From the IMG/VR virus record IMGVR_UViG_3300020442_004062, positions 1-23,731 of that record: 23,731 nt of DNA; one strand, 5' to 3'. Shown piece after piece: positions 3,895-23,055 of this stretch. A model generated the notes under the pieces. It did not search any database. It was given only the letters and a program-made list of their open reading frames with translations, and was not told the origin of the DNA. This DNA is from a virus. Both the position numbers and the translations under genes were made by a program. The first letter of the stretch is position 1. Every line of letters starts with the position of its first letter.

Positions 3895-4758
3895 ATGAAA
3901 AAACTATTTGATTTCAGAATCAAAAGAACTATCAAGGAAACTAAGGAAGAGTCTTCTAAAAACGAAAAAGGCGAAACAGTCACAGTGACTAAAGACGTTG
4001 AAGTCGTTAAATCTCAAAAAATAGTTCTTAGAAAGCCCAACCGTTCTCTTTTCGACGAAGCGGAGCTATTCTATGGCGTGCGTTTATCTGAGGGCATTAA
4101 AGCGGGGCTGTTAACTCGCGCTCTTCTCTCTAAAAGATTTTCTAACGATGGGGGCATCCTTTCCGAAAACGAGAAAAGCAAATACGCCGATCTCTACCTA
4201 AAGCTCTATGATGTTCAGCTAGAGCACGATAGGCTTGTTCAATTGGGCGAGAAAAAAAGAACCAAAACTCAAGAAGAAAAGCTTAAAGGCATACAAGAAG
4301 ATTTAGCAGTAATTAAAAAAGAGCTAACTGATTTCGAAATGGCTCAATCATCTTTGTTCGAGCAGACCGCTGAAAATAGAGCTAGAAACAAAACCATTCT
4401 TTGGTGGACTTTGCATTTAGGATATTTTTCCGATGACGAAGACAAACTTACCCCAGTGTTCAGTGGAGACACATACGAAGAAAAGCTAGCCGAATATGAT
4501 GATCTAGAAGAGTCCTCTGATGAATTTCACGAAGAGCTACTCTCTAAGCTTTTGTATTATGTAAGCTTTTGGTATGTCGGCAAGGTAAATAGCGAAGACG
4601 AATTCAAACAGCTTTTGCTTGAAACAGAAAAAGCCGAACAAGTCGAACAAGTCGAAGAAGCAAAAGAAGAGCCCAAAAAAGAATCACCCAAAGTGAAAGA
4701 AACCCCCACACCCAAAAAAAAGAGCAGCACGCCCAAAGATGAAGCTAAAGCTGACTAG
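3895..4758 (+). CDS. Putative tail assembly chaperone, first large gene
   Basis: This 287-aa soluble protein lies between the tail tube and tape measure genes. Residues 1-45 are a basic, strand-like start with an E-K-G-E-T turn. Residues 50-80 hold a conserved-looking helix (FDEAELFYGVRLSEGIKAGL). Residues 100-160 are charged coiled coil. Residues 168-230 contain a Trp-rich segment (ILWWTLHLGYF and YYVSFWYVGKV). The last 50 residues are a disordered Lys/Glu/Pro tail starting with a twice-repeated EQV encoded by the tandem 9-mer GAACAAGTC (4636-4653). By position it corresponds to lambda G, but I see no sequence similarity to that family. An A-AAA-AAG heptamer in the tail (4716-4722) does not create a fusion to the next gene. 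Confidence 0.5.
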   Translation: MKKLFDFRIKRTIKETKEESSKNEKGETVTVTKDVEVVKSQKIVLRKPNRSLFDEAELFYGVRLSEGIKAGLLTRALLSKRFSNDGGILSENEKSKYADLYLKLYDVQLEHDRLVQLGEKKRTKTQEEKLKGIQEDLAVIKKELTDFEMAQSSLFEQTAENRARNKTILWWTLHLGYFSDDEDKLTPVFSGDTYEEKLAEYDDLEESSDEFHEELLSKLLYYVSFWYVGKVNSEDEFKQLLLETEKAEQVEQVEEAKEEPKKESPKVKETPTPKKKSSTPKDEAKAD

Positions 4759-4812: not shown

Positions 4813-5826
4813 ATGGAACATATAGTACCTAAAGAAGAATTGAGACTTGTATATGGAGAAATAGTCCGTGGCAGTTCTTATTTTTACTCTTCAAAATATG
4901 GGGAAGTAATTGTCAAGCATCTTACACAGCACGATACAGAGCTACTTGATGTTAAGAAGTTAAAATACAAGAGAAAAGCCGAAGAAAGAGGATTACCAAC
5001 AGAAGATCAAAGAGTAGAAGATTTGATTGCAGAAAAGCTTTGGAGTGATAAAAACGAAAAAGACATAAAATCCAGTCAAGATTTCATATCTAAGATGGAG
5101 GACACCAAAAAGAAAATGGCCCTCAAATCAGAAAGAGCAAGGGTTCAAGAGTCAATAGATCAAGAAATAGACAAGCTGCAAAAAACCTTAATTGAAAAAA
5201 ACGAATTAGTTGGTTTAACTTCAGAAAGCTATTCAAACAAAAAAGTTAACGATTACTACGTTTATCTCTCACTGTATAAAGATAGAGATTTTAAAGAGCC
5301 TCTTTTTTCCGAGGAAGAATTTGATGAAGTGTCTGAGAGTGATTTAGAAGATATAGTCACGCATTTTAATAAATCGACGAAGCGCTTTGAGCCAAGCTCA
5401 ATAAAAAGAATCGCATTGTCTAGCTTTTTTCTCAATAATTTTTACCTCTGCAAAGACAATCCGTTTATTTATTTTGGCAAGCCAGTGATTGATTTGACTT
5501 ATCATCAGGCTGATCTTTTCTCTTTTGGGCGATATTACAAGCAAATCATGCAAGACATGAAGAATCCAATCACAAACGAGATGATGGACGATCCTGACAA
5601 GCTAACAGATCAGTATGAAATTGAACAAAATAAGGAAGATGTATTGAAAGAAAACGGTAAATCTGGCGAAGCCAGTACCATCGTAGGCGCTACGAAAGAA
5701 GATTTGGATGCTCTTGGTATTTCTGCTACCGAAAATATTGGCGAAACAGTTGATCTTAACGATGAATTAGCGAAAAAAGGAGGTGTAATGAGTATGGAAG
5801 ATATCATGAAATTGCACGGACAGTAG
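4813..5826 (+). CDS. Putative tail assembly chaperone, second large gene
   Basis: This 337-aa protein lies directly upstream of the tape measure gene. The N-terminal 50 residues are strand/helix (VYGEIVRGSSYFYSSKYGEV, then KHLTQHDTELLD). Residues 85-140 are a Lys/Glu coiled coil. Residues 200-255 are aromatic-rich (SSFFLNNFYLCKDNPFIYF). The C-terminal 70 residues are acidic and probably flexible. The ATG at 4813 has no Shine-Dalgarno sequence, because a terminator hairpin and its T-tract occupy 4787-4809. I keep this start because the next in-frame ATG is about 94 codons later and would remove well-structured sequence. The position corresponds to the T part of lambda G-T. It is in the same frame as the upstream gene, but three stop codons lie between them, so frameshifting cannot join them simply. 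Confidence 0.55.
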   Translation: MEHIVPKEELRLVYGEIVRGSSYFYSSKYGEVIVKHLTQHDTELLDVKKLKYKRKAEERGLPTEDQRVEDLIAEKLWSDKNEKDIKSSQDFISKMEDTKKKMALKSERARVQESIDQEIDKLQKTLIEKNELVGLTSESYSNKKVNDYYVYLSLYKDRDFKEPLFSEEEFDEVSESDLEDIVTHFNKSTKRFEPSSIKRIALSSFFLNNFYLCKDNPFIYFGKPVIDLTYHQADLFSFGRYYKQIMQDMKNPITNEMMDDPDKLTDQYEIEQNKEDVLKENGKSGEASTIVGATKEDLDALGISATENIGETVDLNDELAKKGGVMSMEDIMKLHGQ

Positions 5827-5861: not shown

Positions 5862-8800
5862 ATGGCAGAAAGACCTATAGCAGAAGGCACTATTCGTTTT
5901 AGTCCAGACATGCGCTCGCTGGCGAATGTCGAAAAAAGCGTTAAAAAGGCCATAGGAAGAATCGAGAATATATCCGCTCGCGGTGGATTACTCTCGAAAA
6001 ACTACGTGCAGCCCTTGGGGCAAATAACTGGTGCTGCTGACGAATTCACCAAATCTCTAGAAGCCTCAAATGCTCGTGTTATCGCCTTCGGCGCATCAGC
6101 AGGAATCATTTACAACGTACAACGAGCCATAACAGCTAGTGTTAGCGCTGCTGTTGAATTGGAAAAAACTCTTGCTGATATCAACGTAATTTTAAACGAG
6201 ACCAATTCGGGTCTACAGCGTTTTTCAAACGAACTATTCAACATAGCAAAAGGCACGGGACAAGCCTTTAATGCTGTTAGCGAAGCTGCTCTTGAGTTTG
6301 CTCGTCAAGGTCTAGCGGTAGAAGAAACCCTCAAGCGTACCAGAGACGCAATGATTCTTGTGCGTTTGTCTGGCTTGGACGTTAAAAGTTCTGTTGAGTC
6401 GATTACTGCGACCTTAAACAGTTTTAACAAAACAGTTATTAACTCTACCGAGTTAGTTAACAAACTGGCAAATGTTGACGCGGCTTTTGCTGTTAGCTCC
6501 GCTGACCTTGCTGAAGCTATTCGTCGTGTGGGTAGTTCAGCGCAAGATTCAAACGTAAACATCGATCAGCTTATCGCGCTTGTTACCACTGCCCAACAAG
6601 TTACTGCTCGTGGCGGTTCTGTTATTGGTAACTCACTCAAAACGATTTTCACAAGACTGCAAAGACCTCAAGTAATTGCGGACCTTGAAGCTTTCGGTAT
6701 CGTAGTCAGAGATCAACAGCAGAATATGTTAAGCACAATGCAAGTGCTGCAAAACTTTGCTAATACATATGACCAACTTTCTCCTAGCGCAAAAGCAGTT
6801 ACCGCCGAGCTTGTTGGTGGTGTTTTCCAAATCAACGTGCTGAAAGCTGCATTGGGTGATTTGGGCAAACAATATTCAATTTACGATAGGGCTTTAAATG
6901 TCTCTCTAAGCTCAACAAACGAAGCCATAGCAAGAAACGAGTTACTAAACAAGACCCTATCTACTTTAATAAATGAAACCCTAGTAAACGTGCAAAAAGT
7001 AGGTGCGGCGTTTGCTAGTATGACAATCACGCCAACCTTAACAAACGTTTTGGAAAGCGTAAACAGCGCGGTTGAAAAATTAGAAGAAAAAGCCGCCGAT
7101 GGAGACTTGGGCGTAACCTTTGGTAAGGGTATCCTTCAGGGATTAAGTAATGTACTCAGCGGTCCAGCTTTGATAGCAATTGCTGGTGTTTTGGGCAAGC
7201 TAACTTTTAGTTTCTTTAAGTTTTCTTCAGAAGCTGTTAAGACTTTTGCGGGATTAAACAGTACGGCCAACCAGCAAAAAGACGTTCAAACTTTGATTCA
7301 AAACCTACTGATTAAAAACCCCTCCTTAATCCAAGCGGCAACTTCAAGCGCCGAAGGTTTGAAGATGGTTGAGCAAGAAATATTAAGAATTGTTCAAAAT
7401 AGAAATGTTGCTTTAAATGAATCTTCGATTCTTGCCGCTAAGATGTCCGCTAATTTAAGCGCGGCAGACTTCAAAAGCGTAAGAAGTATAAACGCTAGTA
7501 ATTCTAGCTCCTCTTCTGATACTAGTAGTGAGGGCTTTGTACCCACATTTTCAAATGGCTTTGTTCCTAATTACAACCGCAAAAACGAGCAAGCCGAAGT
7601 AATCGGCGCTTTGCAAGGTGGTTATATGCCAGGCAAGATCGACACAATGCAAATTCAAGGCATTGGCAGAGTTACTTACAATCAAGCTGAAGAAGTAAAA
7701 CAATTCCCAGGCATGGATCAGCCTGCGATTATTCCACCAAGAGAAAGTGAAGCGGGCAAAAATTACGAGAGAAGATTCAAAGCCGCGCATGGATTCAATC
7801 CTTATCACCAAGGAATGATTCCTAACTTCAATAAGGAAGAGGGAATAAGAGTCGTTGATGGTGACACTATCGAGGCTATGGCCACTCAAGCGAAAAGCTA
7901 TAGACTATCAAAAGTTGACGCTGCTGAGACGAGTGATCAAGTGCATGGAGCAGCAGCGACAAGGCTATTACAGAATTCAACTTTAAGTAAAAAAGAACGA
8001 TTTGAAAGAGCTATTGCAAAAGGCGAAAAAGCCGCTTACGGGCGGGGCTTGTTTGTTGATGAGCCGTTTCAAAGACTTTTAGTAAGGAGAGGACTTGGAG
8101 TCCCTGATTTAAGATACGCTAGTAAAGACTATCTTAGTAAAGATATTGAATTCGCAAGAGAGAGAGGACATGGAATATGGGGAGACAAAAGCAACCCAAA
8201 AGCTGAACAATATGACCGACAGGTTGGATTGGTGGCCAAAGAGAAAAACCTAGACTATCTAACCAAGGGAGGGTCTATCAGCACGATGGATCGGAAGAGA
8301 GCAAGAAGAATGGGTCTCGAAACGCGCCTTTCTCAACGCGCCCATCACCGCAACATGGCTCAAGGTTTTGTTCCCAATTTAATTACAGACGCCATATACG
8401 AAAAAAACCTTGAAAACAAAATCAAACAAGGCAAAATCTCAAGAGAAGAATTAGAAATAATAAGAAACGAAAAAATCGTTCCAAGTTTTGCTTATGAAGG
8501 TTTGCGTGATGAAGATTTAGGTAATGCATTTGTTAATGTAAACCCAAATAACAAAGCAAAAACAATCGACACTCATTTAACTGAAAAAGAAATCACCAAA
8601 CGTGTTGGTGGCAAAACTCTTATCAGAGGCCCAGAAGGAGAAACACTTATTTTTGGCGGTGACTTAGAAGGCAGAGCGGGCTCTATCACCGTTGGAGGCT
8701 TGAACGCCAGAAAGATCAAAAAAAGTAACGCAAAATTCGCGCCGCTACTCAATCAAATGCCAAACCTGTTCGACGGTTTAGCTTACCAGATCCAGGGTGC

Positions 8801-11800
8801 TATAGGCGCTAAGTTCGATCCAGGAAGCACAAGTGGCGCTGTGGCTGGTGTTAAGTTTGAAGAAGAATTTGCTGAAAAGTATGGACTGCCAGACGCTGGA
8901 GCCAAAAAAGGCAGTGACTTTGTTATTGCTGAAGAACTGGCGCGAGAGTTGGGCACTTCAAAACATTTACAGCTAAAACTTTCTGTGTTCGAGCGAAGCA
9001 AGCGTGATATTAAAAAAGTTGTGGATGTTGCAAGCGCGTTCAGCAACTACTTGGTTCACATGCTCACCAACAACATCAAAACCCAAGGACTTTCAAAATT
9101 AGTTGGCCCAGAAAGATACAGGCAGGCTATGGCCGTTATGAATCAAAACCCTGCTATGAAATCTGATTGGACAAAATACTTTGGCCAGAAGGGCATAATG
9201 GCTGACGGGTTTGTTCCGAACTTTGCACAAGACGCTCTTAAAGCCGCTATTGGCCGTGAGATGGCGGCTGGTTATTCCCGCAGTCAAGTCAAAGTTGGTT
9301 ACGATTCGAGACTCGCCGCAAGCGGTGGCATCGGAGTGTACAACGCGTCTGAGGGCTCGCTTGGTCGCGCTATCAACATGCACAGAGCTTCTGGAAAGAG
9401 CATGAAAGACTTGCAGACCCAAGGCGCGAGTCATGGGTTTGTACCAAATTATGCAACAGACTTTGGAGACTTTGTTGGCGGAGGAATGGGTTTAGCTTTA
9501 ATCGCTCCTGCGGTAATGAACATGGTATCCTCAATGAGAGAGATTAGGGATGAAAGAGATAAAGAGGCTAAATCTATTGCAAATCTTGAAGATAAATTCG
9601 CTAAAGCAGGTCAAGCCGCAGAAAACCACGCCGCTAATCTTCAAACTTTAGAGACCGCAGAAAGCGAAGCTTCAAATAATGTTAGCACATTAGCCCAAAG
9701 AAAAGAGCGAGCTCAAAGAGACTTGGCTGATCTTAAACCAGAAAGTTTTGAGGGTCTTGGGCCTAGCGGTAGTGGGGGTCGCTTTTCAGTCAACGAAGTC
9801 AAAGATTTTGGAGCAGGGCTCGGCCTTGAGAGTAGGAAAGGCAAAGCAGGATTTAAAGACTTAAGTAAGCCAGGTAGAGAAAATGAACTGAGCTATACAG
9901 AAGTTGAAGACCTACTAAAAAAAGAACACGCTGCGGAGCAGAGAAAGCAATTTAACGAAGAACAGGAAAGAAGACAGCAAATAATAGATGAGCTAGACTC
10001 TCAGTTAGAATCAGAAAGAGAAAGCGCAACCGAGGCTAAAGAAAAAAAAGAAGCCCTATCTAAAGAAACAAGCTCTAGAAAAAAAGCTTCAGACGAAGCT
10101 AAAGAAGAGCTAGAAAGCGCTAAGAAAAACAGAACAGGAAGATTCAGTAACGAAGCAATTTCCAAGGTGGGCCTAGGGTTATCATTTGCAGCGCCGATGG
10201 TAGCTGGTCAACTTTCTCAATTTGCTGGCAGCAACACTGGTGTATTTGGCAGAGCATCAATAAACGCCTTGGGTCAAGGCATCGGTACTGCTGGTATCAT
10301 GGGCACAGCAGGCGCTGAATTTGGCACAAAAATAACAAAAGACTTGCAAGAAGGAACTGGGTTTGTAGGTGAGACGTTGGGATTAAGCGCTGACAAAGGA
10401 GCAGGAAGAGCTCTTGGGGCGGTAGCAAGAGTCGCTGGCCCTGCTGCAATGGCAATAGGCATAGGTAAAGCCATAGACGACATGGGCAAAGCAATGGCCA
10501 AAGCCGAAATCCAAGAAAAAGCTGATAAGATAGGCGGAGAACTAGAGCTTTTAAGCACACAATTCAATAGAGTGCAGCAATCAGGCCAAGCATTCATGAC
10601 TAGCTTTGACAAGCTGCAACAAGCTTATGACAGCCCGCTAGACACAAACCCAGCAGACGTTCAAAGAGTTCAAGCTGACCTAGCAAAAGCCTTAAGTGAC
10701 GCTCCCGCAGAATTTAGAGAAAAAATAAGAGCAGCCGCTGGTGACGCAGACAAAATCAGAGAAGCTTTCAGCGAAATAAGCACTGAACTCCAAAGACAGC
10801 AGGCATCATTAAAGGCTGCTCAAGACTTGTTTACTATGCAAGCTGATATGGCTGCTGGAGGGGGCTTCTTTTCTCAGATTCTTGGAAGAGAAGACACCAC
10901 AATTTTTGAAAATGATGCTGAAGGCAAAAAAGCCCTTTCTGCCGCAAAAGCCACCGTAGCTGGCGGATTGGATAGGCCAGGAATAATCAAAGCTTTAGAG
11001 CAAGGCAGGGAACTTGATGTCGCTGGTAAAGACATGTCTGAGTTTTTAGGCGAAGATTTTAAAGAAGCTTTTGACGGATTAAAAGACGCTGGAGACCAAG
11101 AAAAAATAAGACAAATAATCAGAAAATTCTTTAAAGAAATCAAAGATGGAGCCGCAGACGCCGCCAAGGTAGCAAAAGATTTAGAGCGCAGACAAGCAAT
11201 CGAAAAAGCTTATCAAAAAGAACTTAAAAACTTAAACACACAATTAGACACATTTGTTTCTAGCTTGGGTAAAGTTGCAGCTAGAGTTGAAAACAATCTC
11301 AAGTCAGTGTCTAAGCTAGCCGATAACATCAAAGACTTTCAGTTAGACATGCAAAAAGCCCGATTCGAAGGGGCTAGAACATTACAGCAGCCATTCCTAA
11401 CAAAACAGGAGCAAGTGAGAAGCAACGCCGAGTCGCGTCAATTCGAAATAAGAGCCGATTCTATAAAACAAATGCGTGACGCAGTCAGAGACGGTAGCTT
11501 CAACGTCTTAAACGCTGTATCTGGACAATTCAACGAGGCTGCTGGCAAAGTACAGCAAGCTGCTACAGATTTATCAAAACCACAAAGCAGAGAAAACGTT
11601 GTAGCGTTCCAAAGAACCAACAGAGCATTAAATGGTCTTGCTCCAATTATTGAAAGCGCATTTAAAACATTTTCTCAAAACTCAGGAAAACTTGACGCTC
11701 TCATTGGCATAGAAAAACAAATAGAATCAGAACTAGTAAATGCAGGCTACACAAACCAGCAGGCCAACGCTATTGCTGAAAATGTTAAGCAAGAAATTTT

Positions 11801-14800: not shown

Positions 14801-16646
14801 CACGCTGGAACTAGTGAACGCAGGGCTTGCGTCAGCCTCTCTATTAGAGGAAAGAAGAAAACAATCATTTGATAGAATATTCCAAGAGAGAGCTCAACAA
14901 GGCAAGGGAACTTTTGGTGGAGCTAATCGCGCTGAATTGAGAATGCAAAAAGAAGAGTCAGAAGCAGCAATGGCCGCAGAGCTAGAAGCCAAGCTCAAAC
15001 TCTTAAATGATGCTAGAAAACATGAATTACTAACAGCCGATGAGCTAAGACAAAAATCAGCCGAGCTAGCTGACCAAATGGCCGCAACAGGAAATCTTGG
15101 TTTCAAAGGGTTTATTGGAGCTTTACAAGCAGAGCTTACGTACAGTCAAGCCGACTACCAAAAAGACATTCTTTCAATGGGCCGTGAATTCACACGAGAC
15201 TTCAAGAGCGGAATGGCTGGCGCATTTGGCGAGGCAATCAGAGGAACCAAGAAGCTCAAAGACGCCTTTAGCGATATGATGGCTAACATGGCCGACAAGC
15301 TGCTTGATAGGTCTTTGGATATGGCCACCAACTCATTCTTTAGTTTCATGGGGTTCAACAAGGGCGGTTACGTTAAAGGCTACAGTAGTGGCGGTATAGT
15401 GAAAGGCGGCTCTGGCATCAAAGACGACGTACCAGCTTACCTGAGTCGCGGCGAATACGTGATTCGCAAGAAAACTGTAAACGAATACGGTAAAGACTTT
15501 TTCGACTCTTTGAACTCTGCTAAAGTTGTAGCAGCGAATAAGGGAGGAATGATTGATAACACTAGACTAACCAAAGAAACCGCAGACAGAATCTTTGGCG
15601 GTAGTGCCAGAAACATGGCCGCGATTCAAGCCGAAAGACAAAAGCGTCAGTCAGCGCTACAAAGAGCGGGCATCGAAGCATTTGGCTACAAAGAATCTAC
15701 TGGAGACACCAAAAAAGACTGGCTCGGCAGAGACACTGGGCAAAAAGTTTTAGCAAACAGAGTAGGCTTTAGATTAGACTTTGGCAAGCCACTGAACGAA
15801 AAAAGAATTCAGGATATTCAAAGCGCTGTAAATGCTTACCCAGAAATCGGACCTTTCATTGACCCAGATATCTTTAAGCGTTCGACGGTTGAGATTGGCG
15901 GCGGCGCGACAAAGCTCAAGCTCAAAAACAGCTTCATCTATAACGAAACCAAGCGGCCCGATCAGGGCAGATTCGTCGCAGACCCAAGACTCAGCACTTT
16001 GGCTTTGAACGACGAGAACAACCCGCAAAACAAATACAAATTTGAAAAAGCTGACACGTTCTTTAACTATCAAAAAGACCGTTTAGATTACTACGCCGAA
16101 AAACAAAAAGAGCTAGAAGAATTCCAAGAGCAAAAAGCCAACAGAAGAAGAAGCTTCTTGTTTGGCGCAGGAGCACTATTGTTTGCTGGAGCACTCAAGG
16201 GCTTCAACAAGGGTGGCCCCAACAAAGAAGACGATATCCCAGCGCTGCTTACTGGTGGTGAGTACGTGGTCAGAAAGGGCATCGTAGATAAATACGGACT
16301 CAACTTCTTTGAGAATCTCAATAGAGGTAAAATCTCAGCGTTTAACAAGGGTGGTTACGTAGCCCCTGTGACTGGCGCAAGACCCACCACAGAATTTCAG
16401 GGAGGCTCACCAAGCACTTCGGTTGAAGGAATCAACACTACAAATAATATCAACATTTCTGTAAACGTAGATTCCACAGGAAACGTGACCACTCAAACTG
16501 ATCAAGGAGGCTCCAGAAACACAGACGCAGCGTCACAAGAAGAAACCAAGCAAATGGCAGACAGAATCAAGGGTGCTGTAATCGGAGTAATCGCAGAACA
16601 AAAGAGACCAGGCGGAATGCTCTACGGGACATCAGGAAGCGTTTAA
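5862..16646 (+). CDS. Giant tape measure protein with embedded nuclease-like modules
   Basis: This 3594-residue protein would set tail length and line the tube, to be ejected at infection. Residues about 70-400 match the TP901-type tape measure core (for example LEKTLADINVILNETN, then the VSSADLAEAIRRVGSSA region). A hydrophobic stretch follows at about 422-456. Residues 558-1198 hold six G-F-V-P-N-type motifs enclosing an SNase-like domain and a possible second nuclease. Long coiled coils run from about 1225 on, broken by Gly/Ala-rich hydrophobic segments (about 1432-1490 and 1515-1540) and a Pro/Ala linker (about 2504-2531). The C-terminus has two copies of an FNKGG...DD[VI]PA.L..GEYV.RK motif (from 3165 and 3448), common at tape measure C-termini. 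AGG at 5850 precedes the ATG by 9 nt. Arginine codons are CGT-rich at both ends and AGA-rich in the middle. Confidence 0.93.
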   Translation: MAERPIAEGTIRFSPDMRSLANVEKSVKKAIGRIENISARGGLLSKNYVQPLGQITGAADEFTKSLEASNARVIAFGASAGIIYNVQRAITASVSAAVELEKTLADINVILNETNSGLQRFSNELFNIAKGTGQAFNAVSEAALEFARQGLAVEETLKRTRDAMILVRLSGLDVKSSVESITATLNSFNKTVINSTELVNKLANVDAAFAVSSADLAEAIRRVGSSAQDSNVNIDQLIALVTTAQQVTARGGSVIGNSLKTIFTRLQRPQVIADLEAFGIVVRDQQQNMLSTMQVLQNFANTYDQLSPSAKAVTAELVGGVFQINVLKAALGDLGKQYSIYDRALNVSLSSTNEAIARNELLNKTLSTLINETLVNVQKVGAAFASMTITPTLTNVLESVNSAVEKLEEKAADGDLGVTFGKGILQGLSNVLSGPALIAIAGVLGKLTFSFFKFSSEAVKTFAGLNSTANQQKDVQTLIQNLLIKNPSLIQAATSSAEGLKMVEQEILRIVQNRNVALNESSILAAKMSANLSAADFKSVRSINASNSSSSSDTSSEGFVPTFSNGFVPNYNRKNEQAEVIGALQGGYMPGKIDTMQIQGIGRVTYNQAEEVKQFPGMDQPAIIPPRESEAGKNYERRFKAAHGFNPYHQGMIPNFNKEEGIRVVDGDTIEAMATQAKSYRLSKVDAAETSDQVHGAAATRLLQNSTLSKKERFERAIAKGEKAAYGRGLFVDEPFQRLLVRRGLGVPDLRYASKDYLSKDIEFARERGHGIWGDKSNPKAEQYDRQVGLVAKEKNLDYLTKGGSISTMDRKRARRMGLETRLSQRAHHRNMAQGFVPNLITDAIYEKNLENKIKQGKISREELEIIRNEKIVPSFAYEGLRDEDLGNAFVNVNPNNKAKTIDTHLTEKEITKRVGGKTLIRGPEGETLIFGGDLEGRAGSITVGGLNARKIKKSNAKFAPLLNQMPNLFDGLAYQIQGAIGAKFDPGSTSGAVAGVKFEEEFAEKYGLPDAGAKKGSDFVIAEELARELGTSKHLQLKLSVFERSKRDIKKVVDVASAFSNYLVHMLTNNIKTQGLSKLVGPERYRQAMAVMNQNPAMKSDWTKYFGQKGIMADGFVPNFAQDALKAAIGREMAAGYSRSQVKVGYDSRLAASGGIGVYNASEGSLGRAINMHRASGKSMKDLQTQGASHGFVPNYATDFGDFVGGGMGLALIAPAVMNMVSSMREIRDERDKEAKSIANLEDKFAKAGQAAENHAANLQTLETAESEASNNVSTLAQRKERAQRDLADLKPESFEGLGPSGSGGRFSVNEVKDFGAGLGLESRKGKAGFKDLSKPGRENELSYTEVEDLLKKEHAAEQRKQFNEEQERRQQIIDELDSQLESERESATEAKEKKEALSKETSSRKKASDEAKEELESAKKNRTGRFSNEAISKVGLGLSFAAPMVAGQLSQFAGSNTGVFGRASINALGQGIGTAGIMGTAGAEFGTKITKDLQEGTGFVGETLGLSADKGAGRALGAVARVAGPAAMAIGIGKAIDDMGKAMAKAEIQEKADKIGGELELLSTQFNRVQQSGQAFMTSFDKLQQAYDSPLDTNPADVQRVQADLAKALSDAPAEFREKIRAAAGDADKIREAFSEISTELQRQQASLKAAQDLFTMQADMAAGGGFFSQILGREDTTIFENDAEGKKALSAAKATVAGGLDRPGIIKALEQGRELDVAGKDMSEFLGEDFKEAFDGLKDAGDQEKIRQIIRKFFKEIKDGAADAAKVAKDLERRQAIEKAYQKELKNLNTQLDTFVSSLGKVAARVENNLKSVSKLADNIKDFQLDMQKARFEGARTLQQPFLTKQEQVRSNAESRQFEIRADSIKQMRDAVRDGSFNVLNAVSGQFNEAAGKVQQAATDLSKPQSRENVVAFQRTNRALNGLAPIIESAFKTFSQNSGKLDALIGIEKQIESELVNAGYTNQQANAIAENVKQEILSQKDATVNKLSEIAQQQVMQLKLQEEQAYWAQEEAKLQARLNSFGGASDFGRGGATNLSGNFDRFQTALSSAIGAQISKGIIELGRANSQILDLLLNNMNMDFLRDNVEGLTPLLGPAIQGRAADIQSQISFASRLANIQGVDIDTSGIDATQIATEQIASQLKLKDLPDDVAKIRENTALLNTLIASQANDIAAANRGAFEDALNATGLHNVDHNTNQGILATQTAGVNSVRVGNAIGTTNRDGFNALLDLQKNTLPSAIGQNINSSLKPFSDRLENLQTIIKQITALTAGRDLEVKLLEAKTEFNATRSGDQIKQIEDATDFVELSNMDQDFGGRARMKADDKFVQAIADAGGGDMRTGLVDVLRRRVRGAGGSKGAREANEELFQSFRNAAKAKGLEDVFDLRVEGATRFLQTGFKNQLVNVPDMVGRTRDGKILGEGEQGFNELRSQRGFGSAEGPLLFAEFLTGRKDKILAPARAAEAKLATAQGEINEFITRTEQETGAKLKLSPEGKLVRVAEKVEPPKPPAPIPVPPPVGKPQTAAAAAAPKKPIQFIEAKPDVSGEGIVGGGVTPFSSSRNVMVEISQFREKSIEALKEESEKRRLGVEKDREALTQLDNNLVLTEEGKAKQKEQIRKRLEFNILVKQGLDTLVKNKEAEQKRRDLIEKMVAETRAQVATMEAIAGNTPKLTELMELFRDVQMKMLDKKAFSAAEEILKLGVTGGDPEQIRNQIQSQFETGVNALTRVEGGNTELAKQRAQRIAQMGLDRRQAGLDQFALGIGLSEGSSLQDILSSTGSDTEVGKLLQAGDIVGAAVAANKSGEANIDIEELKKKMNEVGFSTVEAARIIQNSQIDKELRSLGNFVEKAKAGLIDSEAINAKVESTFARFVKNGKNEEAVFQKIAKLREAQVQKRQEEFAREIKVLKEARDFELNQKIPQDLTEALTKAQEGLSSFGEINQVIGGAIQTFIEKGGDLDKIGKTLEQLQLEKSSKAADEFARTLELVNAGLASASLLEERRKQSFDRIFQERAQQGKGTFGGANRAELRMQKEESEAAMAAELEAKLKLLNDARKHELLTADELRQKSAELADQMAATGNLGFKGFIGALQAELTYSQADYQKDILSMGREFTRDFKSGMAGAFGEAIRGTKKLKDAFSDMMANMADKLLDRSLDMATNSFFSFMGFNKGGYVKGYSSGGIVKGGSGIKDDVPAYLSRGEYVIRKKTVNEYGKDFFDSLNSAKVVAANKGGMIDNTRLTKETADRIFGGSARNMAAIQAERQKRQSALQRAGIEAFGYKESTGDTKKDWLGRDTGQKVLANRVGFRLDFGKPLNEKRIQDIQSAVNAYPEIGPFIDPDIFKRSTVEIGGGATKLKLKNSFIYNETKRPDQGRFVADPRLSTLALNDENNPQNKYKFEKADTFFNYQKDRLDYYAEKQKELEEFQEQKANRRRSFLFGAGALLFAGALKGFNKGGPNKEDDIPALLTGGEYVVRKGIVDKYGLNFFENLNRGKISAFNKGGYVAPVTGARPTTEFQGGSPSTSVEGINTTNNINISVNVDSTGNVTTQTDQGGSRNTDAASQEETKQMADRIKGAVIGVIAEQKRPGGMLYGTSGSV
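7842..8187 (+). other. SNase-like (thermonuclease) domain within the tape measure
   Basis: TMP residues 661-776 follow the staphylococcal nuclease pattern from end to end. IRVVDGDTIEAM carries D668 (equivalent to Asp21). YRLSKVDAAET carries R681 (Arg35), D686 (Asp40) and E689 (Glu43). AYGRGLF carries R728 (Arg87). The family's later L-V-x-x-G-L-x and A-R-x(4)-G-I-W signatures are also present (LLVRRGLGV and the final GIWGD). The usual D-x-P-E proline is replaced by alanine. The calcium-binding and catalytic residues are all kept, so activity is plausible. Family members cut DNA and RNA in a calcium-dependent way. It is bounded by motif copies at 651 and 835. Confidence 0.85.
8847..8990 (+). 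other. Possible PD-(D/E)XK-type nuclease core within the tape measure
   Basis: TMP residues 996-1043, in the module between motif copies 835 and 1116, contain FEEEF (E1000-E1002), then GSDF (D1019), then HLQLK (Q1037-x-K1039). The order E ... D ... Q-x-K with about 18 residues between D and Q resembles the PD-(D/E)XK fold in its Q-x-K variant, as found in Mrr-type endonucleases. The basic stretch after it (ERSKRDIKKV) would suit DNA contact. This is pattern reading on a very degenerate fold, so it is a suggestion only. Confidence 0.4.
15354..15516 (+). repeat. Tape measure C-terminal motif, copy 1
   Basis: TMP residues 3165 to about 3218 run FNKGG, a Gly/Ser-rich stretch, KDDVPAYLSRGEYVIRKK and EYGKDFFDSLN. 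The same order of elements returns at 16203 (copy 2). This motif is frequent near the C-terminus of tape measure proteins, the end that meets the tail tip. Codons here are CGC/CGT/GGC-rich compared with the AGA-rich middle of the gene. Confidence 0.75.
16203..16347 (+). repeat. Tape measure C-terminal motif, copy 2
   Basis: TMP residues 3448 to about 3495 run FNKGG, KEDDIPALLTGGEYVVRK, DKYGLNFFENLN and then FNKGGY again. It parallels copy 1 at 15354 with the same spacing of DD[VI]PA, GEYV and FF elements. A hydrophobic segment (FLFGAGALLFAGAL) lies just before it. Confidence 0.75.
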
Positions 16647-17392
16647 GAATAATAAGACATAGTGTTCGCAACAATATCTTGCTGGCTTAACACACTATTT
16701 TCTGGGTAAGGAAAAGAAGCCACAGCTTGTTCACCATTTTCAGGCGCTGCAATTGTAACTTTGGGCGCAAAATCATAACCACATCCAAAATCAGTAACTT
16801 CAATTTTTACTACTTTACCATCGGCTATTAAAGCTTTCGCCTTTGCGGCAAAACCAAAATGAGAACCATTTGGAGCATCGATAGTAACTTCTGGAGGAGA
16901 GGTATAGCCGCTACCAGTTTCCAGTATAGTAATTCCAAATATGTTAGAGAAAGGGTTGTATCTCAAGATATCGACATCACTTTCTATCTCTGAAAACTTA
17001 AGGTTATCTGGTAGGTCTCTAAGGAAACTTTTTAATTTGATTACATGGTTTTTGAGTTCAATATCATCATTTTCTATAGACACCATAAACGGTATGTCTA
17101 AAGATTTCAGGTAATTGTCTCTTTGTTTTTTTATTTCGGCGTAAGCTTTCTCTATAAAAGCATTTCTCATGTTCATACTAAGCTCGCCGTTTTCATTAAG
17201 CTCGTAGTGGGCCTTGTAGACGCTAGGAGAAACCGTGTCGTTTTTTAGGTAAAAGTATTTTTTAAAATTAGATTTATCTTCACCATAAACGTCGCTATAA
17301 GAACTCAGGGCGCTCTCTTCGGCGGTATCCAAGGGGAAACTCATAATCCTCTTGTTTCCATCATTTAAAAAAACTAGTAAATTATTGTTCAT
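16643..17392 (-). CDS. Tail-tip accessory protein, assembly-chaperone-like plus GSGYT repeats
   Basis: This 249-aa protein is the last gene of the left-pointing operon. I choose ATG at 17392 because it forms the classic ATGA overlap with the stop of J; a TTG two codons upstream (17398) is possible but less likely. Residues 80-130 (KKQRDNYLKSLDIP ... FLRDLPD) resemble the helical R-x(2)-L-x(2)-D ... L-R-x-[LI]-P pattern of tail-fibre assembly proteins. Residues 154-187 and 197-226 are two beta repeats, with GSGYTSPPEVTIDAP and GCGYDFAPKVTIAAP as matching cores. Such G-x-GY-x(2)-x-P-x-VTI repeats occur in phage tail and fibre proteins. Whether it stays in the virion or only helps fold J or a fibre is unknown. 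Its stop overlaps the tape measure stop on the other strand. Confidence 0.6.
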   Translation of the reverse strand: MNNNLLVFLNDGNKRIMSFPLDTAEESALSSYSDVYGEDKSNFKKYFYLKNDTVSPSVYKAHYELNENGELSMNMRNAFIEKAYAEIKKQRDNYLKSLDIPFMVSIENDDIELKNHVIKLKSFLRDLPDNLKFSEIESDVDILRYNPFSNIFGITILETGSGYTSPPEVTIDAPNGSHFGFAAKAKALIADGKVVKIEVTDFGCGYDFAPKVTIAAPENGEQAVASFPYPENSVLSQQDIVANTMSYYS

Positions 17393-20300
17393 GTGCAAGA
17401 AGGCGTGGTTGTGTTGTTTCTTGTGTTGGTTTCTTCGGTTGTGCCCATTACAAAAAATATGGCTCTAGAGAGGTAAGATTTATCAATCATATGTCCCATG
17501 TGAATTACAAAATGATCCGATTTCTTAGGTAAGCCTCCAAAACCTTGAACGAACCCTGCTGGGTGAAAGTTAAAATAGCCATCACTTGAGCCTATTTGTA
17601 CTTTGCCTACGTTAGCTTGATCTTCTTCTGCTTTGGCTAAAGCATCTGTAGCGCCTGCTTTCATATCTTCGGCCCATTGTGGGCTTACGTCGCTAGGAGA
17701 GAAAAATGTTTCCAAATTTTCTAGTAAAGTGTCGCTGTAATATTTTTCATTATTTACATTCATACCCATAACCCAATAAGGGTTGCTCCTTTGTTTCTCT
17801 AAATGCACTTTAAATCTTTTGAAACCTTTTGTGCCCTGCATAGCCGTTGACCAAGTGTCGTCGTTGTTTGTTTTAGCAATAGTTGTCGTACCGTTCGCTG
17901 CTCCTTTTAAATCAATTTGCGCGGTTGGCAGATTTGTATCATACTCTTCACCAATGCCGTTGCCTTGTGGTGTGTAATAATTACAAGCCATTGTAAATGC
18001 GCCTCCATTTGTATAACCTGCGTTTCTGGTAAAGTGACTCCCCACTCTAGGCTGACCTTGGCCATCAAAACCAATAATCGGAGCTTTTCTTGTACAATAG
18101 AATTGCAAGTAGCCTTTGTAGTCAGTTCCTCCGCCAGCCTCGCTTGCGTCATTAGTGATGTCTTCGACGCATTTAATGCCTCTACCATACCAGTTTCCGT
18201 CAACATCAATTTGAATCCAAGCTTTCCAGCCCTCACCAAGAAGATCAAGAGTATCTTGCGTGACTTTATCTATTTTGACGGCCTGAGAAAATCTATTTGT
18301 GAGTCTCTTGGTTAAATCAAATGTGGTCTCACCATTTGCAACAGCTAAAGATTCAACGTCAAGATCAAATTGGTCAACGTAAGCTACCATGAAATACGCT
18401 GAAATATTCTCGTTCGTTACGCTTTGAGTAGACCAAGTTGGATTAATTTCGAATACGTCTACATCAGCACTAATTCTTTTTGCTTCAATATCTGTTCTAC
18501 TTCCCTCTGTATAATCAGAATAACTGAATGAGCTTTCAGCGGTAAGAATAATAACCTCTTTTACGTCTGGTGGTCTATTTAAATTAAAAATCTTAATATG
18601 ATTATCTAAATCAATAAATCCATCACTGCTCGCAAAAGAGGGTACGCTTGGCTGTGGGTTTTCTATTTTTAAAACATCATGATCTGGAGCAGAGGTTTCT
18701 CCAGCTTCGTTCACGGCAAAAACCTTGAAGGACAAAGCTCTTTTTATGAGGTCGTAGTTATTAGAATGGTCAGCGAAGTTATTGGCCAGTGTATAATTGA
18801 AAGTTGTGATAGAGCCCTCGGAATCATCAGGCTTGTAGTTATTGACTGTTCTTATAACATTGCTTGGTCCATGATCGTCGTAGACTTCTACCTTGTATTG
18901 AAAGTCTAATGCTATGTTTGCTCCTTTGAACTGAGGCACTGAGGTTTTCCACTTTAGCCTAGCTGTTGAGTCAGTAAAGAAATCTACTTGACCATCAGTT
19001 GTCGGATCGCTTTCATTTGGATTTGCTCCACCAGCCGCATCATCAATGAGAGATAAGTGGGTTATTGCGATATCTCTAATCGGTGCAATATTATTTACGT
19101 TTATAGAAACTACCGTGGCAGAAGTACCATTTGACTGCCCAAGAACATTGTAAGCATAAGCTGATACATAATACTCGCCATTACTAGCTGGTATAAAATC
19201 AGAAGTTAATTCGTTGAGAGAGTAAATTTTAGCGGAAGAATCAAAATCTGTTTCGCTACTTGCCGAGCCTTTTTTGATATAAACTTGATAGTAAGAAACA
19301 GAAGATGCGTGGTCAGCGCTTTCTCCCAAACCTATTTCTACAATTTTGGTATTCGGCGCTCCTTCAGCAGTAAGCTGTCGTTGGGTCAGGGTGATCAAAC
19401 TTGGAGCAGCAGGAACTTGAAAGGTGACATTATTTACTGGCTTGGTGGCCTTATCTATTTCTCCATACTTAACCCTAGCATATTCAGCCGCTGAAATTTC
19501 GTACTTACCTTTGTCAGACTCGCTGATATTGATTACCCTATATTCTTGTTGCTGCCTTAAAGTTTCGAAAAATGTGTCGGCCTTATCGTTTACTCCTGTG
19601 GTGGCAATACTCCACAATGACTCACCATCAAAACCAGATGTTGTGTAAGCTGTTTCGTCTAGATTCCCACTTACAGTAATTACGCTTACGCCGCTATTTG
19701 TGTCATACGAAACGGTATTTGGGCTAATATCAAACGTCTGTATTTGCTTGTTTCTCATCAAGCTTGTTTCGGTAGAATTACCTAAATCAACCTGAGAGGT
19801 GTCGTAATAAAAAGAAGGAGTAGAGACTGTTAGCTGGTACTCTATCTTTCCGTCTAAATTGTCATTTGATACGAAATTATTACCATCCCAGCTTTTTCCA
19901 CCCTTTAGTTGGGAGTCTAAAGCGATCTTGAAAGTAGAGTCGCTAGTGCGCTCTAGAGCCCTTATTCTGCCTCCCCTGCGGGTCATAGACCTGTTGGAGT
20001 CAGAAACGCTGAAAACGTCTCCTGGGCGCAATATGGCCCCTTCTTGGCCGCATGTGAAAGAGACTGTTTCGGTCTCATTTGACTCTGTGGCAAGAATCCA
20101 TCGCCCAAGTCTTTGGGCTTGAGATTTGCTTGTGCAGCCAAACGCCGAAATCTCTTTTTCCTTGATCCCGTATTTTCTAATTGAATCTACGTCTTCGACA
20201 TATTCAACTGCTGGCTCGAACTTGTTATTTTTGTCATTGTATCTGACGATAGCGACTGTGTGGCGAACTTTAGCGCTGGTGCTAGAATATTTAAACTCAC

Positions 20301-21708
20301 CATTTTCGACGCTTGTATTGTTAAATTGAAATATTGGGTCTTTTAGAGAATCTTGAACCGCGAAAAGATTGCCTCCATTGTAATAAACAATACCTCTGAA
20401 AATACTTGCCATGTCATTGAGGACTTGATAAGCGTCTTCGCGGGATTGAATAATTATATTACAACTAAATCTAGGCTCTAAACCCCCATCAAAATCCTCT
20501 ACTAGCTCATCACAATATTGAGCAATTTCATAAAGAGTCCACTTATCTAAAGTCGAGGTGTCTACGTATTTACCTAAACCATATCGTTTGTTGGTAATTA
20601 AATCATAAAAACACCAAGCGGGATTATCAGTCCAGTGTTTGCCCTTTTCAGTTCGAGTGCCAATAGCGGAGCCATTTAAATCTCCGTATTCACCAACCGC
20701 TTCGGTAGAAAACTCACCGTTCCAAGAGCCATGATATGTTCTCGTTATGGGGTCGTAATTTTTAGGGATTTTAACCTTCATCAACCGCATGTCGTAAGCT
20801 CTCTCTGGTATGGAGGCAAAGTTTTCTGCGTCAAAGGTATTTTTTACTACATAAGATTTCGGGTAAATAAAAGAGTCTTGAATTTCTTCGACAATGTTAT
20901 CTACAAATATTTCATTTCTAGTGTCTGGGGTGGTGGGCTCTTCTTTGTCTTTGAAGATTCTAATCTCCCAGCCGATAAAATCGCCTCGGCCTTCTAAGTT
21001 TCTAGCCTTTTCCAACGGCAAGTCTAACTCAAAGCTTCTAGCGTAAGGTGAAGATAATGAGCCTTCTATTTTGACAATTCCACCAGTTTCGTATTGCGCT
21101 TTCGAGCCTAAAGCGTATTTAGCCCTAAAGTCAACTTTAACAGAAACATCTGAGTCTCTAAGTTTACCATAAGTTTCATTAGGATCGCTTGTTGTGCCTG
21201 GGTCTCTATCTATATTTCCTAGACTGCCTATTTTAAAGTTTATAATTGCTTTATTGCAGTATTTATTTCTTATGGTATAGTATCGATGATATTTGATGAA
21301 CTCAATCGTGCTACCCGTTTTTCTTTCTAGACCTCTAAGTTTTTCGTTGATTTGGACCAACCTTCTTGAGCTTAAACCTTCTTGAGATATTGTTTGCTGA
21401 TTGGTAACTAAATCAACCGCTCCGAAGTTAAACTTCTCAGACTCTTTATCGTAAACTGGGGTTTTGTTCCAATATATAGATGCTAATTCACCCGAAGGCT
21501 GATACAAAGAGTAGGAGTCAATTGTGATGCCTTTTGTAAAACCAATCGAGCCTTCTTGGTTAGAGCCATTATCTTTCCACTCTCTCCAAACTGGGCCATC
21601 AATTTCCCCTTCGCAAAGCAAGTCTACAACATAGCCAGTAGTGTTAGACATGAATCTAACACCTGTCTCGCCGTTAAAAAATACGCCTTGTACTTGATCG
21701 CTAGCCAT
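17389..21708 (-). CDS. J: Tail tip / host-specificity protein J
   Basis: This 1439-aa protein is the central tail-tip protein that contacts the host receptor; lambda J is about 1130 aa. Residues about 1-60 form the hub start (TGYVVDLLCEGEIDGPV). Residues about 355-570 carry the diagnostic J core: NPAWCFYDLITNKRYGLG, then EIAQYCDELV, EPRFSCNIII, NGGNLFAVQDS, ISAFGCTSKSQAQRLGRWIL and LRPGDVFSVSD. From about residue 770 there are strand-rich segments that read like fibronectin type III domains. The last 250 residues are Asn/Gly/Thr-rich with FNFHPAGFVQGFGGLPKKSD, likely the variable receptor-binding end. The start overlaps the I stop by one base (TAATG), and the stop overlaps the next gene as ATGA. 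The family call is firm; the receptor is unknown. Confidence 0.9.
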   Translation of the reverse strand: MASDQVQGVFFNGETGVRFMSNTTGYVVDLLCEGEIDGPVWREWKDNGSNQEGSIGFTKGITIDSYSLYQPSGELASIYWNKTPVYDKESEKFNFGAVDLVTNQQTISQEGLSSRRLVQINEKLRGLERKTGSTIEFIKYHRYYTIRNKYCNKAIINFKIGSLGNIDRDPGTTSDPNETYGKLRDSDVSVKVDFRAKYALGSKAQYETGGIVKIEGSLSSPYARSFELDLPLEKARNLEGRGDFIGWEIRIFKDKEEPTTPDTRNEIFVDNIVEEIQDSFIYPKSYVVKNTFDAENFASIPERAYDMRLMKVKIPKNYDPITRTYHGSWNGEFSTEAVGEYGDLNGSAIGTRTEKGKHWTDNPAWCFYDLITNKRYGLGKYVDTSTLDKWTLYEIAQYCDELVEDFDGGLEPRFSCNIIIQSREDAYQVLNDMASIFRGIVYYNGGNLFAVQDSLKDPIFQFNNTSVENGEFKYSSTSAKVRHTVAIVRYNDKNNKFEPAVEYVEDVDSIRKYGIKEKEISAFGCTSKSQAQRLGRWILATESNETETVSFTCGQEGAILRPGDVFSVSDSNRSMTRRGGRIRALERTSDSTFKIALDSQLKGGKSWDGNNFVSNDNLDGKIEYQLTVSTPSFYYDTSQVDLGNSTETSLMRNKQIQTFDISPNTVSYDTNSGVSVITVSGNLDETAYTTSGFDGESLWSIATTGVNDKADTFFETLRQQQEYRVINISESDKGKYEISAAEYARVKYGEIDKATKPVNNVTFQVPAAPSLITLTQRQLTAEGAPNTKIVEIGLGESADHASSVSYYQVYIKKGSASSETDFDSSAKIYSLNELTSDFIPASNGEYYVSAYAYNVLGQSNGTSATVVSINVNNIAPIRDIAITHLSLIDDAAGGANPNESDPTTDGQVDFFTDSTARLKWKTSVPQFKGANIALDFQYKVEVYDDHGPSNVIRTVNNYKPDDSEGSITTFNYTLANNFADHSNNYDLIKRALSFKVFAVNEAGETSAPDHDVLKIENPQPSVPSFASSDGFIDLDNHIKIFNLNRPPDVKEVIILTAESSFSYSDYTEGSRTDIEAKRISADVDVFEINPTWSTQSVTNENISAYFMVAYVDQFDLDVESLAVANGETTFDLTKRLTNRFSQAVKIDKVTQDTLDLLGEGWKAWIQIDVDGNWYGRGIKCVEDITNDASEAGGGTDYKGYLQFYCTRKAPIIGFDGQGQPRVGSHFTRNAGYTNGGAFTMACNYYTPQGNGIGEEYDTNLPTAQIDLKGAANGTTTIAKTNNDDTWSTAMQGTKGFKRFKVHLEKQRSNPYWVMGMNVNNEKYYSDTLLENLETFFSPSDVSPQWAEDMKAGATDALAKAEEDQANVGKVQIGSSDGYFNFHPAGFVQGFGGLPKKSDHFVIHMGHMIDKSYLSRAIFFVMGTTEETNTRNNTTTPSCT

Positions 21709-22352
21709 TAGTTGTAATACTCTCCGTTCTCAAAAATTTTCCTATCACCATGCTCGTGAGAATAAGCAATGGTAAGCGACCCAACCATCACACGCCCATA
21801 ACCAATAGGTACGGGGCCACCTGGGTTATAGGTGTTAAGCGGGCCATTGAAAAGGTAAGATTCTTTTTTGTTTGTTTGTTGAATCTCTCTAAAGTCTTCA
21901 AATTCAGGCGGCTCTGCCAGCAAGTTACTCATGCCAGTTAAAAACGAATAAGCGCCAATCATCATCATCATAGTGTTTTCCATTGCGTAGCCCATGCCAA
22001 ATAAAAGCCCGCCGCCAAGAACCATAGTTAAGTCTTTTGCGTCGTCTCCAGCGCCCTCTAGAACAGGTACGATATCTATAGTCTTGTATTTTTTGTTAAT
22101 AAATAACTCTGAATTTTTAATCTTCTCTATCTTGTCGATGTTTTCAGAAAAGAGCGGTTTTTCGTCTGTTAATACTTTGTATTTAATGTTTTGCTTTTCA
22201 TTTTCTACGATAGCTTTTGCAAGCTTTCGCTTTGATAGAATGTCCACCGCTCTCAATCCTTCAGCTACATTTTGGACTTTAAGCTCAAAGTCTTTTTGAC
22301 CTAGAGCTTCCGCTAGATTGCCGTGAAAAGTGATTTTAGTTAGCTTTGACAT
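21708..22352 (-). CDS. I: Tail assembly protein I (ubiquitin-like N-terminus)
   Basis: This 214-aa protein has the three-part layout of the lambda gpI family. Residues 1-100 look like a beta-grasp, ubiquitin-like domain (KLTKITFHGNLAEALG, DFELKVQNVAEGLRAV). Residues 108-145 are Gly/Met-rich and hydrophobic (LGGGLLFGMGYAMENT). The C-terminal part has the family signature YLFNGPLNTYNPGGPVPIGY followed by G-R-V-M-V-G-S. It acts with K and J during tail-tip assembly. The gene overlaps the end of K by 17 nt and the start of J by 1 nt. Its ATG has a weak AGG about 10 nt upstream, so coupling to K is likely. The pairing of a ubiquitin-like domain with the JAB peptidase of the neighbouring K gene is a known feature of lambda-type tails. 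Confidence 0.85.
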   Translation of the reverse strand: MSKLTKITFHGNLAEALGQKDFELKVQNVAEGLRAVDILSKRKLAKAIVENEKQNIKYKVLTDEKPLFSENIDKIEKIKNSELFINKKYKTIDIVPVLEGAGDDAKDLTMVLGGGLLFGMGYAMENTMMMMIGAYSFLTGMSNLLAEPPEFEDFREIQQTNKKESYLFNGPLNTYNPGGPVPIGYGRVMVGSLTIAYSHEHGDRKIFENGEYYN

Positions 22353-23055
22353 TTTTGTGCCTAATAACTTTCTTAATTAATTTTAAGTGCCTGCCTGTTA
22401 GTGATTCTATCTTAGAGTAGCTTTTTTCAGGTTGATGTAGAATAAGATCATTTCCTAAATACAAAGATATATGAGAACATGGCTTGTTTTTTCCATTACT
22501 AAACAGTATGCAGTCATACTTTTTTAATTCATCTACTTCATAAAACCCTTCGTTTTCGAAATGCTTTTCAAAAAGATCGCTTAAATAGCTTCTCCAGTTT
22601 TTGTCTCTGTAATGATGTCCTAAACTTACACCTAACTCCGCCTCGTAGAACGACCTCACCAAAGAATAACAGTCTGATTCGCCTATCTCAAACTTCCTGC
22701 CTATATAGTTGTTGAACTCACCGCAGGAAGGAGAAAATTGAATTAAAGAGTTATTTTCGGGGCAGTACATCACATAAGTAATATTGTGATTAATACTGTT
22801 GAACTTATCAAATTCAGAGAAATTTTGGTTGCCATTAGTGTGAGAATGATAGACAGCTACTATTTCGCCAAGGTTCGAGGCTTGCAGGTAATCTCTTGGG
22901 TTGACCCTAAATAAATCTTTTTCTAGAGAGTCGTTTTTAGTTGGAACGCAAATTAAATCGCCTTTATCGGACACAATCAAACCACAACACTCTTTAGGAA
23001 ACTCTTTTTCGTATTGAGCTTTAATCTGTTTTTTAATGTGGCCACTTAAAATCAA
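22336..23055 (-). CDS. K: Tail-tip peptidase K (JAB/JAMM + NlpC/P60)
   Basis: This 239-aa protein starts at TTG 23055, chosen because a perfect AAGGAGG lies 8 nt upstream and the TTG overlaps the L stop (TTGA). An ATG at 23136 would lie 85 nt inside L and add residues unlike the family. Domain 1 (about 1-115) is JAB/JAMM: E22 in ECCGLIV, then H70-S-H72-x7-S80-x2-D83, a complete zinc-site motif. Domain 2 (about 122-239) is NlpC/P60: C129 in GESDCYSLVRSF, H195 in CSHISLYLG and H207 as a possible third polar residue. The usual G-D before the central strand is replaced by Y-D-C. The JAB part may process another tail protein, and the NlpC/P60 part may cut peptidoglycan at infection; both roles come from family knowledge. 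Confidence 0.9.
   Translation of the reverse strand: MILSGHIKKQIKAQYEKEFPKECCGLIVSDKGDLICVPTKNDSLEKDLFRVNPRDYLQASNLGEIVAVYHSHTNGNQNFSEFDKFNSINHNITYVMYCPENNSLIQFSPSCGEFNNYIGRKFEIGESDCYSLVRSFYEAELGVSLGHHYRDKNWRSYLSDLFEKHFENEGFYEVDELKKYDCILFSNGKNKPCSHISLYLGNDLILHQPEKSYSKIESLTGRHLKLIKKVIRHKNVKAN

Follow-up and report, generated by a model that had tools for sequence, protein, structure and literature searches.

The motif array of the tape measure gene

We analysed a stretch of 23,731 nucleotides of DNA from an uncultured virus (IMG/VR record IMGVR_UViG_3300020442_004062, positions 1-23,731), hereafter called the window, and in it the gene of a tape measure protein (TMP) of 3594 amino acids (aa). 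The motif G-[FM]-[VI]-P-[NT]-[FYL] occurs in this TMP in exactly six copies, between residues 558 and 1197 (window 7533-9452), and no other copy was found in the rest of the protein or anywhere in the six reading frames of the window. This agrees with a preliminary description of the same DNA, which had confined the six copies to this region of the TMP. Shuffling the window TMP 2000 times produced no copy of the motif.

The preliminary description had also divided the region into four unrelated segments of 79, 178, 275 and 69 to 70 aa. These sizes were correct, but the segments of 79 aa and of 69 to 70 aa are domains that are fixed throughout the family (bookends hereafter) and the segment of 275 aa is not a single unit. 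It contains the sequence KIVPSF at residues 871-876, which we counted as a degenerate seventh copy because relatives have GFIPNL, EIPNF, GFVPSF or GFVPNL at this place. The true C-side cargo module is therefore made up of the last 239 residues of that segment, 877-1115 (Table 1).

Table 1. Features of the tape measure gene and of the gene pair upstream of it (pLDDT, predicted local distance difference test score)
Feature	Position in window	Strand	Evidence or remark
287-aa gene, first of a mutually related pair	3895..4758	+	Homologues in 76 of 80 TMP loci
337-aa gene, second of the upstream pair	4813..5826	+	Homologues in 77 of 80 TMP loci
Tape measure protein, 3594 aa	5862..16646	+	PhageMin_Tail PF10145, E=1.2e-24; seven PHROG tape measure families, best 9.4e-46
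N-terminal core common to the family, residues 46-533	5997..7460	+	Identity of 79% to L002 and of 49% to L003
Motif copy 1, GFVPTF, residues 558-563	7533..7550	+	
Motif copy 2, GFVPNY, residues 566-571	7557..7574	+	Equivalent copy invariant at G, P and N in 35 relatives
N-side bookend, residues 572-650, fixed domain, not cargo	7575..7811	+	63-member cluster; pLDDT about 80 in relative L131
Motif copy 3, GMIPNF, residues 651-656	7812..7829	+	
Cargo module 1, staphylococcal-nuclease-like, residues 657-834	7830..8363	+	3shl match, catalytic-type residues
Motif copy 4, GFVPNL, residues 835-840	8364..8381	+	
Spacer of 30 aa separating motif copies 4 and 4b	8382..8471	+	Missing from L124
Degenerate motif copy 4b, KIVPSF, residues 871-876	8472..8489	+	Aligned with GFIPNL, EIPNF, GFVPSF and GFVPNL of relatives
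Cargo module 2, residues 877-1115, PD-(D/E)XK-like pattern, tentative	8490..9206	+	Invariant KFE, GSDF, QxK
Motif copy 5, GFVPNF, residues 1116-1121	9207..9224	+	Two extra modules at this site in L124
C-side bookend, residues 1122-1191, fixed domain	9225..9434	+	74-member cluster; folded in L131 model
Motif copy 6, GFVPNY, residues 1192-1197	9435..9452	+	

The PhageMin_Tail match of the window TMP reached 87.7 bits, above the curated cut-off of 33.2. The placement of the gene also fits that of a tape measure gene, as this open reading frame (ORF) of 3594 aa lies among tail genes and its upstream genes are syntenic in 64 to 77 of 80 loci. About 2400 residues follow the motif-bearing cassette, and this remainder of the TMP is hydrophobic and coiled-coil.

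Conservation of the motif and exchange of modules among relatives

At least 80 homologous TMPs were gathered from IMG/VR by the N-terminal core alone, so that they were not chosen by the motif. Two or more strict copies were present in 71 of the 72 TMPs whose ORF ends inside the locus, with a mean of 3.8 copies, compared with a shuffled expectation of 0.0006 per protein. The sole exception, L141, is a gene broken after 500 aa, and the 3066-aa ORF downstream of the break has four copies; the split may be a natural break or a sequencing error. A scan with the motif only, made with a DNA pattern for GFVPNFA, gave at least 120 ORFs, of which 87 had two or more copies among the matches listed. Among these listed matches, the TMP core was found in all 40 of the multi-copy ORFs that were complete at the five-prime end, and a bookend in 29 of the 31 truncated multi-copy ORFs that lacked the core. 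Apart from the downstream half of the broken TMP of L141, no copy of the motif was found in the 352,000 aa of the 1262 further ORFs close to the TMPs. The motif array is a real, family-wide architecture, and the motif is practically confined to the TMPs of this family. A random frequency in unrelated proteins, which the preliminary description had named as one outcome contrary to its proposal, was not found.

The consensus of 557 instances was [AK]-[SA]-x-G-[FY]-[IV]-P-N-F-[AS], with about nine conserved positions, and G, P and N were invariant at all four motif copies of 35 single-cargo cassettes. Comparison of motif copies within the same gene showed that their sharing of codons was only modestly above that expected from codon usage (0.43 instead of 0.35 for G, 0.54 instead of 0.45 for P and 0.83 instead of 0.76 for N), and the motif is therefore conserved at the protein level, as had been proposed from the different codons of the six copies in the window. 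The spread of the motif by copying of a repeat at the DNA level was rejected, as codon agreement is near codon usage.

The cassettes of these TMPs follow one grammar: N-terminal core, motif, a fixed bookend of about 76 aa, motif, one to six cargo modules fenced by motifs, motif, a fixed bookend of about 68 aa and a last motif. Splitting at the motif gave 431 segments that fell into 117 clusters, 81 of them singletons; seven of the 117 clusters were bookends, of two kinds (N side and C side), and the other 110 were cargo. Most TMPs had one cargo module, and some reached six.

The AlphaFold model of the single-cargo cassette of L131 had a mean pLDDT of 69, with the bookends and the cargo folded at about 80 and all four motifs in stretches of pLDDT below 50 between the folded domains. 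This model indicates that the motif sits in flexible linkers, in keeping with the linker role proposed at the outset, and strict conservation of a peptide within such a linker would mark a short linear motif rather than a fold. Such a motif could be a site to which a partner in the virion binds, the explanation that we develop below, or a protease site, in which case a polyprotein-like TMP would be cut at each G-[FY]-[IV]-P-N-F-A by a phage or host protease and its modules and bookends freed in the tail or after entry. We consider cleavage unlikely, and it is the main rival. One copy per junction in predicted flexible linkers, about nine conserved positions, among them F-A/S following PN and small residues preceding G, and a spacing that is indifferent to the cargo all suit a protease site; some modules carry HExxH zincin-like motifs, and the processing of polyvalent proteins by such peptidases has been proposed (Iyer et al. 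2017, PMC5512222). However, cleavage would detach the N-terminal core from the remainder that measures length, a recognisable embedded peptidase is missing from most TMPs of the set, and no candidate protease could be linked to the motif. Although the bookends too have motifs on both sides, they are strongly conserved, as befits an assembled structure.

Comparison of the sequences of close relatives shows that they gain, lose and swap whole modules at the motif. L085 and L100 come from different samples and have about 96% protein identity near the breaks, but two whole modules that one of them has are lacking in the other, while L016 and L088 differ by one module swapped between two flanks that the pair has in common. 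The breakpoints of both pairs lie in or beside the motif codons. Comparison of the window with L204 showed a DNA identity of 82.7% that starts within the degenerate motif, at position 8479, and on the upstream side L204 has another nuclease-like module where the window has a staphylococcal-type nuclease (SNase). L124 has about 980 extra bases, corresponding to two modules, at motif copy 5, and window 9213-9227 matches both sides of them. When breakpoints were scored over all proteins, 64% of 90 non-redundant breakpoints were located within 5 residues of the motif in both proteins, compared with 1.7% of random positions; some proteins contribute to more than one of these counts, so that their independence is incomplete. 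Single exchanges could be assembly chimeras, though many independent contigs agree. The modular cassette suggested in the preliminary description is supported by these exchanges.

These exchanges bear directly on the possibility that the motif is part of one fixed TMP fold, in which the variable parts would be ordinary fast-evolving sequence. Variability is a known trait of TMPs, and apparent mosaicism in their sequences may be spurious (PMC10684548), but in genes that are otherwise closely similar, whole modules are cleanly present, absent or swapped, which already contradicts a fixed fold. We regard such a fold as very improbable. The SNase and GNAT domains are each found in more than one context, and the TMPs of two cultured relatives that share the core as an outgroup, Staley and SPBc2 YomI, are without the motif. 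Homologues differ between the motifs, so the identical intervening sequence that had been named as the second contrary outcome was not found either.

The cargo modules

Module 1 of the window matched the PDB thermonuclease 3shl (E=8.8e-5) and a PHROG endonuclease (0.0016), and its residues D666, D668, R681, D686, E689 and R728 did not vary among six SNase modules taken from different TMPs. Equivalents of the thermonuclease catalytic residues D21, R35, D40, E43 and R87 were kept in all six modules. The 179-aa segment of module 1 had no Pfam match at E<=1 and did not reach the gathering score of the SNase family, and it is therefore a divergent SNase at best. The catalytic residues kept in six contexts argue for active SNase enzymes, in line with the earlier claim that at least one segment is an enzyme domain. 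The SNase module (window 7830-8363) also matched the middle of PHROG 8809, a 2317-aa family (E=1.1e-4), a hint that an SNase lies inside a further giant phage protein.

In module 2, KFE, GSDF and QLK were invariant in three sequences, and a PD-(D/E)XK-like pattern was read by eye. This module had no Pfam match and no hhalign link to other modules, and we tentatively regard it as a nuclease.

Among the modules of other TMPs, GNAT modules (L054, L201) and a nucleotidyltransferase module related to cytidylyltransferases (L125) scored above the Pfam cut-offs, and the matches of P-loop and ParB-like modules were weaker. Profile comparison merged about twenty cargo clusters into one superfamily, which is probably PD-(D/E)XK. 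HExxH zincin-like, ADP-ribosyltransferase-like, HAD-like and kinase-like modules were read by eye, and the ADP-ribosyltransferase-like and HAD readings had no database support. Three modules, L075:12662-13237, L083:2529-3278 and L069:5703-6323, look ADP-ribosyltransferase-like by eye (YRG and STS-type motifs); none of the three has Pfam support, and L083 had no PDB match. In one module of L125 (L125:13031-14293), a P-loop motif occurs together with a domain of cytidylyltransferase type (Pfam HIGH_NTase1_ass, 3.4e-8). Read by eye, this module resembles a NadR-like NMN adenylyltransferase joined with a kinase, a combination that would suit the repair of lost NAD. Several unrelated enzyme domains can occur in one polypeptide, as in L201 (P-loop, GNAT and others) and L125 (a nucleotidyltransferase among others). 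In many phages, then, enzyme domains of various kinds lie between copies of this one motif, an outcome that the preliminary description had named as support for its proposal.

The abundance of nucleases raises the possibility that the modules are selfish, with nucleases that cut alleles without a module and home into the motif, so that the cassette would be mobile DNA rather than a function of the virion. Nuclease-like modules dominate (the superfamily of about twenty clusters), and exchange is recent and frequent. This explanation nevertheless appears improbable to us, as many modules are not nucleases (GNAT, nucleotidyltransferase, P-loop), no splicing domain was recognised in them, the insertions are in frame and both bookends are retained. 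The codons of the motif are close to the usage of the gene, so that no fixed DNA target site is visible.

A proposed cargo cassette in the tail and its relation to known systems

The two genes upstream of the TMP belong to families that merge in iterated searches and are without a clear family match. They occupy the usual place of tail assembly chaperones and are a possible chaperone pair. On the other side of the TMP, tail tip genes (lambda-type J, I and K homologues, window 16643-23731) lie on the minus strand and converge on it; 34 of 80 loci had J homologues on the minus strand, downstream of the TMP, an unusual arrangement that may mark a lineage. One segment of the 250-aa protein encoded at window 16643-17398, on the minus strand, resembles repeats found in many virion structural PHROG families.

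The explanation that we favour, with modest confidence, is a cargo cassette with a linker motif that is read by a partner in the virion, and whose domains are delivered to the host early in infection. Two fixed bookends enclose one to six exchangeable, mostly enzymatic modules between the N-terminal core and the remainder of the TMP, and because one kind of linker bounds every module, any module could join any neighbour with folding and assembly undisturbed. The virion partner would read the linker motif and so string the domains along the tube whatever the cargo, and the best candidates for this reader are the tail tube and the upstream pair of 287 and 337 aa. TMPs exit the phage tail ahead of the DNA. 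Because of this and because catalytic residues are kept, the domains may leave the tail with the TMP before the DNA does and have their effect on the host at an early stage of infection; the cargo delivered by the phage of the window would be an SNase and a second, probable nuclease.

Several points weigh against such a delivery cassette. The phages are uncultured and all of the evidence is metagenomic, the docking partners are candidates only, and folded modules of 130 to 330 aa must fit in the tail tube or traverse it. A cleavage site in flexible linkers would give an identical pattern of conservation. The zincin, ADP-ribosyltransferase-like, HAD, kinase and PD-(D/E)XK assignments are often motifs read by eye. 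The AlphaFold model of the window cassette was unusable (mean pLDDT 43), and Foldseek matched the L131 cassette to no entry of PDB or BFVD at E<=0.001, so that the fold of the common cargo was not confirmed. The cassette profile likewise gave nothing convincing against PDB.

The delivery cassette could be extended to a universal peptide connector, with which any folded enzyme would be loaded serially in the tail tube and exchanged by recombination, as a standing arsenal against the host. We put this forward tentatively, as rather more likely to be wrong than right.

Comparison with known systems showed partial likenesses. The TMP of phage Staley, with its annotated lysin domain, resembles these proteins in having a TMP core and an extra domain inside the chain. 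However, the known enzyme-bearing TMPs have one or a few wall-associated domains, while here up to six exchangeable domains are fenced by motifs and include enzymes of intracellular type. Tme of the Streptomyces contractile injection systems (PMC11126660) is a TMP-like protein with a nuclease in a tail-like particle, but its single EndA-like nuclease is C-terminal and its system contractile, whereas the modules here are internal, varied SNase or PD-(D/E)XK-like domains and the tail tip genes are lambda-type. No sheath gene was seen in the window, which is a partial contig, and its tail genes are homologues of lambda-type J, I and K, so it does not fall among the contractile systems.

Polyvalent proteins (Iyer et al. 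2017, PMC5512222) are similar in that unrelated enzyme domains occur in a large phage protein thought to enter with the DNA, and the repertoires overlap (GNAT, nucleases, zincin-like, ADP-ribosyltransferase-like and kinase-like). Here, in contrast, the carrier is a TMP with fixed bookends and a junction motif, and a search of that paper by term did not find tape measure, SNase or linker in it. None of the 105 module representatives had a Pfam match to ArdC-N or LPD-type polyvalent domains, some of the described domains being without a model. Polymorphic toxins (PMC3482391) also combine a constant carrier with recombining effector modules, but their variable part is a C-terminal tip that usually adjoins an immunity gene, whereas these modules are internal and in series, with about 2400 TMP residues after them; immunity genes were not searched for. 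None of these systems appears to have a motif-fenced, bookended series of exchangeable modules.

Domain shuffling is common to these TMPs and to the survey of phage domain mosaicism of Smug et al. 2023 (PMC10684548), in which TMPs gave a sequence signal and no genuine recent case was confirmed. The L085/L100 and L016/L088 pairs look like genuine recent module exchange in TMPs.

A search of 50,697 cultured phage records gave no match to three cassette queries, and a further SNase query gave a single weak match (E=0.05). We found no description of the motif in this context in the literature searched. A scan of genome contigs gave no match with the N-terminal core and four contigs of metagenome-assembled genomes with the cassette (L211, L212, L213 and L214). 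The bins of these contigs are Neomarinimicrobiota, Halobacteriovorax and Flavobacteriaceae, an uncertain host assignment, since they may be hosts or hold mis-binned phage.

The presence of this cassette in the TMPs of a large uncultured phage group suggests plug-in carriage of enzymes inside the tail. If this is true, the TMP would be a multi-cargo carrier with a defined connector, beyond a ruler with an occasional wall-degrading domain, and the way in which folded enzymes sit in the tail tube and exit from it would become testable. The motif would also provide a sequence signature for cargo enzymes in uncultured phages, as anything between two motifs would be a module, and the pairs compared here would be apparent real cases of the recent TMP module exchange that was unconfirmed in the earlier survey (PMC10684548). 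The connector could also offer a starting point for packing proteins into tail-like particles.

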